Assembly (NCBI GenBank): GCA_030616165.1
Contig: JAUWXV010000008.1
Location: forward strand, 1 to 33,567
Length of the DNA stretch: 33,567 bases
Reading direction: 5' to 3'
Source: a bacterium
GTDB lineage: Bacteria; SM23-31; JAUVVT01
Both the position numbers and the translations under genes were made by a program. Below, piece after piece: positions 712 to 19,741 of the stretch. Numbering within the stretch: the stretch's first letter is position 1; each line of letters opens with the position of its first letter. A model generated the notes under the pieces. It worked only from the letters and a program-made list of their open reading frames with translations. It was not told where the DNA came from and ran no database searches.

Positions 712-739
712 GTAGGGGCGGTTCGTGAACCGCCCCTAC
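712..739. repeat. REP-like 28-base palindrome
   Basis: A near-perfect inverted repeat with 13-base arms: GTAGGGGCGGTTC, a GT centre, then GAACCGCCCCTAC. One more T/A pair flanks it. It is the complete form of a repeat whose ends (GTAGGGG / CCCCTAC) recur at 769-794, 856-871 with 2730-2745, 2781-2806, 18172-18195, 19556-19577 and 19632-19653. It would form a strong hairpin in either strand. No T-tract follows, so it is not a typical terminator. Confidence 0.85.
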
Positions 740-762: not shown

Positions 763-797
763 GAGGAAGGGCGACCACAGTGAGTCGCCCCTACATA
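763..797. repeat. 35-base direct repeat, copy 1, carrying a REP-like hairpin
   Basis: This stretch is identical to 2775-2809. It holds a hairpin with stem GGGCGAC (769-775) / GTCGCCC (784-790) and ends with the conserved CCCCTAC of the REP family, while the GTAG at the other end is missing. The two copies lie outside the insertion sequence on either side. They look like two members of a pre-existing repeat cluster rather than a target-site duplication, because each is separated from the IS by unrelated sequence of different length. Confidence 0.8.
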
Positions 798-855: not shown

Positions 856-871
856 GTAGGGGTTCAATATA
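856..871. repeat. Left half of a REP-like palindrome interrupted by the IS
   Basis: GTAGGGGTTCAATATA lies directly outside the left IS end. Joined to 2730-2745 with one TATA removed, it rebuilds a perfect 28-base palindrome with arms GTAGGGGTTCAATA and TATTGAACCCCTAC. That is the same length and has the same end sequence as the intact repeat at 712-739. Confidence 0.7.
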
Positions 872-2729
872 TGAGTCCACTCTAAAAAGGTAGTAATACA
901 AAAAAAGTATTTTCAATAAGTATAAGATTTTTTTATAGACAATTTCGATTGAAATTTTAATGATAAAACATAATAGAAAAATTTAAATAAGAATAAAAAT
1001 TGTTCTTTGACAAATTGACCCAAAAAACAGGCCGTTTGAACAGATTTTCTGTTTAATTCAGGTAGATACCGAAAGACTCTTCCAAAGTTGATTGCAATTG
1101 CAGCGGTATAGGCAAAGATGGCTGTTTTGAAATATCCTCTTACTTTAAGTTTTTTATTAGGCATTTTCCTTATAAATTCCCAAGTAGTCGCCTCTATATT
1201 GTTCCTTAATTTTCTTCTTTCAACAGGTATTTTCTTTATGGAATTTAATCTCTTCTTTTGTAAGTAATCTGCTTTTGTAAAGTAATACACTCTTGAATTT
1301 TTTGCTTTTAGTGTGGTACATTCTGTTGATAGGGAACAAGTAGAACAGATTTTTAGATTATATTGTGCCTTTTCTCTTTTTCTGCAGGTTTTTGATAGGA
1401 CACTCTGTTTAGGACAACTGACTCTGTATTGATTTTCATTGAGCTTTTCAATTTGCATCACTACTTTAGGAGGTGGTCCTTTAATCCCTGTTTGAACCGG
1501 CGTGATTTGTGATTCCTCTAACTTATTGTCGTTTTCACTACTGCCATATCCAGCATCAAAATGCAATTCATCCAAATCAGGCGTTTTATCTTTTACCTTG
1601 TCTATACGATTATCTAATATCTTATCTTCGGTTACATTGTTCGCTTGAACTGATACATCCGCAATCAAATTGATTTGGTTTTCAGGATTTGCTGTTTCAA
1701 AAATATTAATCGATTGACCTTTGCTTTTTTTACCATTCTTGTTTTTATAGGTAGCTTCAATATCATCAGGAGATTGAATAGAACTGCTCTTTAATTCTTC
1801 TGGCTTCTTTACCGTTATCTTTTTATCTTTAAATTTGAAATGCTCTTTATATACACGCTCAAATATTTTAAATATCGAGTCCTCTGAATACTTTGCCTTC
1901 AGCTGTTCGTAGAGTCTATAGTAAATATCCCCTAACTTCTTTATATGATGAGGTATCTCTGAGGCTTTAATATTATAAATATAATTCTCTGATGTATTAT
2001 TCACATATGGTTCAAGCAAATCTCTGAAATACTCTTTATCAGTCTCGTCTAAGATTCGATAAAGACGAATTAACATCTCAACTAACAATTGCAATCGTGA
2101 ATAATTCCTTATGTTTGAAGCAGCAAAAAATAAATCTGTTCTTTGGATGTTTGTCTTTATCTTTAGTTCTTTTATTTGACCATCAGTCAAATCATCGAAT
2201 GCTATCTCCAGTAAATTTTCTCCGGTTTTTGAATAGTGTTTAGCTAATCTGTTTTGAAAATTAAATATCGTTGCAGGACAAAATGGAACTTCATCTATCT
2301 GTTTTAAACCAAAGGCTGTTTTGGTAAGTAAATTGAAATGTATATTCTTAAAAAGATCTTCATAGGTGTAATTTTCTTTTTGCATCAATATAAGTGAAGA
2401 TACCAATGCGTTTACAGCTGAATTGGGGCGACTATCGGTCTCTGAATACAAACATTCAAAGTCTTCTTCTTTAATGTTGCAAAAAATTAGTTCGTAAAAT
2501 TTGGATTCCTCTGATTTATCTAATTCCTTTTGTTGTTTATTTGGTAAATCGTTGCGAAATCCAAATAAATCCTTTTGTAAGTGCTTTGTGTTTTTCTTAA
2601 ACATTTCACCTGTTTTATGTTTGTTAGTAAATGTTTTAATACATAATAAATTTACATATTTTTAATAAAACATTCAACAGGTTTTTGCTTTTTTTTCATT
2701 AACATTTTAACCTTTTTAGAGTGGACTCA
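872..2729 (-). mobile_element. IS1182-family insertion sequence (complete)
   Basis: A single transposase gene (913-2604, minus) is bounded by perfect 20-base inverted repeats, TGAGTCCACTCTAAAAAGGT at 872-891 and its complement at 2710-2729. The inverted identity extends 16 bases further out on each side (856-2745). I read that extra part as the two halves of the REP palindrome the element entered, giving a 4-base TATA duplication (868-871 and 2730-2733). A one-base shift (ATAT duplication, ends at 871/2730) cannot be excluded, because the target is palindromic. Intact ORF plus perfect ends indicate a recent insertion. Confidence 0.85.
913..2604 (-). CDS. IS1182-family transposase
   Basis: A 563-residue transposase of the IS1182/DUF772 type. 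The N-terminal DUF772-like helical region (about 40-130) includes the SRPNSAVNALVSSLILMQ stretch that normally carries the PxxLL-like helix. The RNase H-fold catalytic acids are visible as D157 in QRTDLFF, D350 in HFDAGYGS and E471 in NNIEATTWEF. A Cys-rich insert (C397, C407, C420, C423, C429) before the last acid fits the zinc-ribbon-like part of this family. The length is normal and there is no frameshift. The ATG is used and the start lies about 125 bases inside the right end. It should catalyse cut-and-paste transposition at the 20-base ends. Confidence 0.92.
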   Translation of the reverse strand: MFKKNTKHLQKDLFGFRNDLPNKQQKELDKSEESKFYELIFCNIKEEDFECLYSETDSRPNSAVNALVSSLILMQKENYTYEDLFKNIHFNLLTKTAFGLKQIDEVPFCPATIFNFQNRLAKHYSKTGENLLEIAFDDLTDGQIKELKIKTNIQRTDLFFAASNIRNYSRLQLLVEMLIRLYRILDETDKEYFRDLLEPYVNNTSENYIYNIKASEIPHHIKKLGDIYYRLYEQLKAKYSEDSIFKIFERVYKEHFKFKDKKITVKKPEELKSSSIQSPDDIEATYKNKNGKKSKGQSINIFETANPENQINLIADVSVQANNVTEDKILDNRIDKVKDKTPDLDELHFDAGYGSSENDNKLEESQITPVQTGIKGPPPKVVMQIEKLNENQYRVSCPKQSVLSKTCRKREKAQYNLKICSTCSLSTECTTLKAKNSRVYYFTKADYLQKKRLNSIKKIPVERRKLRNNIEATTWEFIRKMPNKKLKVRGYFKTAIFAYTAAIAINFGRVFRYLPELNRKSVQTACFLGQFVKEQFLFLFKFFYYVLSLKFQSKLSIKKSYTY

Positions 2730-2745
2730 TATATTGAACCCCTAC
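2730..2745. repeat. Right half of the interrupted REP-like palindrome
   Basis: TATATTGAACCCCTAC lies directly outside the right IS end and is the partner of 856-871. Its TATA (2730-2733) duplicates 868-871. Confidence 0.7.
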
Positions 2746-2774: not shown

Positions 2775-2809
2775 GAGGAAGGGCGACCACAGTGAGTCGC
2801 CCCTACATA
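2775..2809. repeat. 35-base direct repeat, copy 2, carrying a REP-like hairpin
   Basis: Identical to 763-797. The hairpin is GGGCGAC (2781-2787) with GTCGCCC, followed by CTAC. It sits between the IS and the end of the FGGY kinase gene. Confidence 0.8.
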
Positions 2810-19216: not shown

Positions 19217-19555
19217 TAACCGAATGCTGATAAATTTTTATTTTTCATAATAAATTCTACTTTACTCCAGCATTTCATGTCTCTTAATAAAATTTAAATA
19301 TCTCTATAAAGTGAGAAACAACTGTTCTAATTTTGGTAGTATGAAGATTTTTTTATATCAATAATCAAGTTATATAATTGGGGTCTACTGAAAAAGTTTC
19401 AGAAACTATATAAGTACTTGATATTATGATAATTATTTATTATAATGAAGCAATTCAAAAGGTTAAAAATGCACATAAATTTCAAATTATCCTGAAAAAA
19501 GCTTGCACTTTAACATAAAAATTACTCCAATTTTTAGTTGACCCTAATTAAGATC

Positions 19556-19577
19556 GTAGGGGCGGATTTATCCGCCC
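19556..19577. repeat. REP-like hairpin (forward unit of a pair)
   Basis: GTAGGGGCGGAT-TT-ATCCGCCC: 8-base stem with the conserved GTAG head. It is paired with the oppositely oriented unit at 19632-19653. Confidence 0.65.
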
Positions 19578-19631
19578 GAATTCATTGTGCTGTTACTGCT
19601 TAAGACTGTATTCATTAATTATTCAACAAGA

Positions 19632-19653
19632 GGGCGGGTAAACCCGCCCCTAC
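19632..19653. repeat. REP-like hairpin (reverse unit of a pair)
   Basis: GGGCGGGT-AA-ACCCGCCC followed by CTAC: 8-base stem with the conserved end in opposite orientation to 19556-19577. The two could pair over the 54 bases between them. Confidence 0.65.
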
Positions 19654-19741
19654 GGATTTGGAATTGATAATTTGTGCGAAAAGGCATTTAATATATATAA
19701 TTTCTTTTTTCAGTAGACCCTAATTATATTTAGACAAAAAT

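Follow-up and report, generated by a model that had tools for sequence, protein, structure and literature searches.

An IS1182-like insertion sequence at the centre of a REP-like palindrome in a draft bacterial genome

In a 33,567-nucleotide stretch of bacterial DNA (hereafter the window), an insertion sequence (IS) lies in the exact centre of a REP-like palindrome, and the TATA at that centre is present on both sides of it (Table 1). When the flanks were joined without the IS and without one TATA copy, they gave a perfect 28-bp palindrome, GTAGGGGTTCAATATATTGAACCCCTAC, which is its own reverse complement and has TTCAATATATTGAA as its central core; both arms are intact around the IS. We consider it very probable that a divergent element of the IS1182 branch, with a preference for A-TWWA-T, inserted at the TATA of this palindrome by a 4-bp staggered cut. 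An earlier note on this DNA had placed an 1858-base element at the centre of such a palindrome with TATA duplicated, which proved correct to the base, and the nearby intact 28-bp repeat with GTAGGGG/CCCCTAC ends that it described is present as well.

Table 1. Features of the insertion site and related palindromes; positions are those of the window unless a contig (C) of the host genome (G000) is given
Feature	Position	Strand	Detail
Intact 28-bp palindrome	712-739		GTAGGGG/CCCCTAC ends; GTAGGGGCGGTTCGTGAACCGCCCCTAC
REP-like hairpin unit	763-797	+	GAGGAAGGGCGACCACAGTGAGTCGCCCCTACATA; 35-bp exact direct repeat, identical to 2775-2809
Left half of split REP-like palindrome, with central TATA	856-871	+	GTAGGGGTTCAATATA
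Target-site duplication	868-871		TATA; eight MITEs of the genome likewise show 4-bp duplications
IS1182-like insertion sequence	872-2729	-	1858 bp; limits from 20-bp inverted ends common to MITEs and relatives with differing flanks
Left terminal inverted repeat (window coordinates), 3' of transposase gene	872-891	+	TGAGTCCACTCTAAAAAGGT
Transposase	913-2604	-	563 aa; DUF772 and DDE_Tnp_1_6; best NCBIfam model IS1182
Right terminal inverted repeat (window coordinates), upstream of transposase	2710-2729	-	ACCTTTTTAGAGTGGACTCA; perfect reverse complement of 872-891
Target-site duplication	2730-2733		TATA
Right half of split REP-like palindrome, with second TATA	2730-2745	+	TATATTGAACCCCTAC
Second copy of REP-like hairpin unit	2775-2809	+	identical to 763-797
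GTAGGGG/CCCCTAC palindromes in the host genome	C42:712-739, C56:15350-15375, C108:3137-3164, C204:119-147, C228:8729-8756, C261:25056-25084, C294:6099-6126

The transposase gene is the only long ORF of the element, and its product has domain matches to PF13751 (3.3e-08) and PF05598 (3.1e-05), with the DDE_Tnp_1_6 match scoring above its gathering score. The best NCBIfam model was NF033551 (IS1182; E 3.9e-24), which aligned over nearly its full length (38-487 of 488) and was matched by all eight relatives too. Elements of the IS1182 family range from about 1.3 to 1.95 kb and carry one transposase ORF that encodes a DDE domain; the same layout is present here, with one DDE-domain ORF, inverted ends, and a 4-bp duplication. 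Since the match scored 85 bits, with the curated cut-off at 270, despite covering nearly the whole model, the transposase either belongs to the IS1182 family as a divergent member or is closely allied to it. The label "IS1182-type" given by the earlier note needs this qualification: the best model and its full-length alignment point to IS1182, but the score stays below the cut-off.

Relatives of the transposase, at 37-63% identity, were found in MAGs labelled Bacteroidetes, Ignavibacteriaceae, Cloacimonadota, Chloroflexi, and Thermoplasmatales archaeon. The relative in the archaeal record (L041, CP070724.1) is 53% identical and has recognisable ends, which suggests either inter-domain transfer or a mistake in binning. 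The IS relatives in other genomes begin TGAGTY or TGACTY and have unrelated flanks; one of them (L039) shows a duplicated TTCA, and some (L037, L041, and L042) lack a clear target duplication. Viral contigs yielded no relatives of the transposase, and among plasmids the matches were confined to distant transposases of haloarchaea and a single one in Microvirga, at 21-31% identity. The host genome, a draft of 343 contigs, holds one full copy of the IS; neither an empty site nor further copies were found in two genomes of the family or six of the phylum, and the transposase was absent from the other five of the six phylum genomes examined.

Together with the intact palindrome and the two hairpin units, the split repeat makes up a small cluster of REPs that surrounds the IS (712-2809), outside the long host ORFs. 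Unoccupied repeats resembling the reconstructed site occur elsewhere in the genome: TCAGGGGTTCAATATATTGAATCCCTAC (L072) differs from it at 3 positions, GTAGGGGCTTAATATATTAAGCCCCTAC (L083), itself a perfect palindrome, at 4, and about 20 further unoccupied copies, of the TTCGA type, have a GGGTTCGATAAATCGAACCCCTAC core, some of them in an array; none of these repeats lies within a tRNA predicted by ARAGORN. These host repeats match the traits of REP and BIME sequences in being short, extragenic, palindromic, multi-copy, and clustered. Perfect GTAGGGG-ended palindromes numbered seven genome-wide, and a reversed control pattern also gave six, so hairpins are common in this genome generally. The 26-29-bp palindromes all have GTAGGGG/CCCCTAC ends, while their inner arms vary yet remain complementary.

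Several further observations concern these repeats. An array of REP-like hairpins (L060, 1430-2070, on contig C92) has TTCGATAAATCGAA palindromes that follow one another at intervals of about 220 and 325 bp, and the host genome has seven Y1_Tnp (RAYT-like) matches (L106-L112), with GTAGGGG or CCCCTAC at five of the seven loci. At 19380-19720 the window contains a MITE-like element with inverted ends GGGGTCTACTGAAAAA and TTTTTTCAGTAGACCC about 340 bp apart and TAATT on both sides, enclosing two opposed REP units of the GTAGGGGCGG type. We also considered TCGAACCCCTAC repeats as possible tRNA T-arms and rejected this; ARAGORN predicts no tRNA there.

The same genome contains MITEs of about 123 bp with TGAGTC/GACTCA ends like those of the IS, 12 of them with both ends recognisable. 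Exact 4-bp duplications (TAAA, TTTA, TATA, or TAGA) border eight of these in varied flanks, and a matching duplication is missing in the other four. All nine clean sites (the IS and eight MITEs) read A-TNNA-T, most with a TTCRA/TYGAA shoulder; with one full IS copy, the target habit of the IS is drawn mostly from MITEs, which we assume to be mobilised by the IS transposase since ends and duplication length are common to both. GTAGGGG-armed sites hold 4-6 of the 13 insertions (IS and MITEs), as opposed to 0.7-3.4% of comparable ATNNAT sites, in a small set of sites and by an arm criterion picked after the sites had been seen. With one GTAGGGG-like arm matching at least 6/7 bases, the share was 4/13 versus 0.7% (p 1.5e-6); with both arms at least 5/7, it was 3/13 versus 0.03% (p 7e-9). 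Palindromy at the insertion sites exceeded that of cross-paired flanks over the central five positions (p 0.004), and no excess over cross-paired flanks was seen at positions 6-12 (p 0.20).

Three other genomes with a related IS and many MITEs provided 29 clean insertions, with 4-bp duplications at A-TWWA-T and no excess palindromy (p 0.24); the pairing of ends in these genomes favoured pairs with a duplication, making the share of clean sites a biased estimate. We had considered whether elements of this type target hairpins as a rule, and these MITE sites did not support it; because the 29 insertions lack excess palindromy, targeting of hairpins in the manner of IS1272 is likewise unsupported. 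The link between IS1182 elements and palindromic targets implied by the earlier note does not extend to a general habit of this type of element, nor was there any stem replacement of the IS1272 kind. Two genomes from other host groups (G006 and G009, those of relatives L037 and L040) have more than 50 matches each to the IS end motif, many of which pair into MITE-like units of 70-300 bp in several size classes.

The 36 bases at either edge of the insertion are perfectly inverted (of 25 inverted repeats listed in the window, 856-891/2710-2745 is the longest and alone is 100% complementary), as they would be if the true IS ends were 36 bp long, GTAGGGGTTCAATATA belonged to the IS, and no REP had been split. 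This is highly improbable, as the MITEs with the same ends and the IS relatives, such as the one with the duplicated TTCA, have unrelated flanks, and near-identical intact palindromes exist without any IS. The outer 16 bases are thus target DNA, and comparison of the sequences supports reading the apparent 36-bp terminal repeats as perfect 20-bp IS ends (TGAGTC...GACTCA) plus REP half-sites. The earlier note had proposed this division and had named beforehand, as what would refute it, other copies with the same bases beyond their 20-base ends; the 12 MITEs and the relatives have other flanks, which fails to refute it, and what could have become an annotation trap is corrected. The palindrome might also be an accident, with complementary bases lying by chance on both sides of the AT-rich TATA that the IS entered; elements of this type indeed have in general no more than A-TWWA-T as their target. 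We regard this as the least credible reading of all: in the 318 kb of the genome that were sampled for background frequencies, palindromic arms of at least 12 perfect bases occur at just 3 of 13,659 TWWA sites, and a GTAGGGG-like heptamer (at least 5/7) on both arms occurs at 0.03% of 3,482 ATNNAT sites, rarities that argue against chance. The arms also match host REP ends, and further MITEs lie in similar sites.

Recognition of structure deserves more weight. Folded as single-stranded DNA, the empty site forms a stem of 12 bp, and the duplicated TATA makes up exactly its 4-nt loop, so the transposase might recognise the REP hairpin or cruciform and cut at the borders of the loop, whose length would set the 4-bp duplication. 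Hairpin targets are known from IS1272, a member of the same family (PMC5678879, PMC4923244), and the insertion site fits, short of proof, the outcome of the loop-only duplication pathway drawn by Wan et al. 2017; if hairpin recognition were true, the site would be a natural case of a pathway so far only proposed for IS1182-family elements. We nevertheless think it unlikely, because most MITE sites here and the 29 clean sites elsewhere duplicate 4 bp without a comparable stem, palindromy beyond the central core at the element's own sites is no better than in cross-paired flanks, and the stem is lost, with no duplication, when IS1272 inserts. The simplest reading is instead a preference for a short symmetrical core supplied by host REPs, and we infer that the element is drawn to them by their sequence and not by a hairpin. 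By the staggered-cut mechanism that we infer, the DDE transposase would make a 4-bp staggered cut at the TATA, which is the centre of the host palindrome's dyad as well as its 4-nt loop, and repair would then duplicate it. An element type preferring A-TWWA-T would find at the centre of the host REP-like repeats a symmetrical core, TTCRA-TWWA-TYGAA; REP loops in this host probably carry this favoured core, which may be why the repeats are frequent targets of the IS and the MITEs.

The literature already describes IS elements inserted at the dyads of REPs, and likewise IS1182-family elements that duplicate 4 bp. ISRm22 and ISPsy8 inserted at the axis of REP palindromy with short direct repeats, and removal of the IS recovers the REP, as in the window; they belong, however, to the IS4 and IS3 families, have 6-bp and 3-bp repeats, and have all copies in REPs (10/10 and 5/5), whereas the association here is partial (PMC1525189). 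ISPse1, an IS1182-family element of Paracoccus, is 1653 bp long with a 4-bp direct repeat and perfect inverted ends (16/16), and is by description similar to our element in length class, duplication, and short perfect ends; its host is different, and the available part of its description mentions no palindromic target (PMC3281130). IS1272/TnSha1, IS1182-family elements of staphylococci, delete or replace a stem-loop without target duplication or primary sequence preference (PMC5678879, PMC4923244); among the IS1182-family cases that we found, IS1272 is the one studied best. Our element resembles IS1272 in its transposase family (by best NCBIfam model) and in its inverted-repeat target, but it leaves both arms in place, generates a 4-bp duplication, and has a preference for A-TWWA-T; removal of the stem-loop without duplication was not seen at the window site. 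The window thus provides a clean example, with MITEs as an internal control, of how a modest preference for a symmetrical target can lead an IS into host REPs, and the contrast with the stem-replacing IS1272 suggests that palindrome targeting in the IS1182 family involves more than one mechanism.
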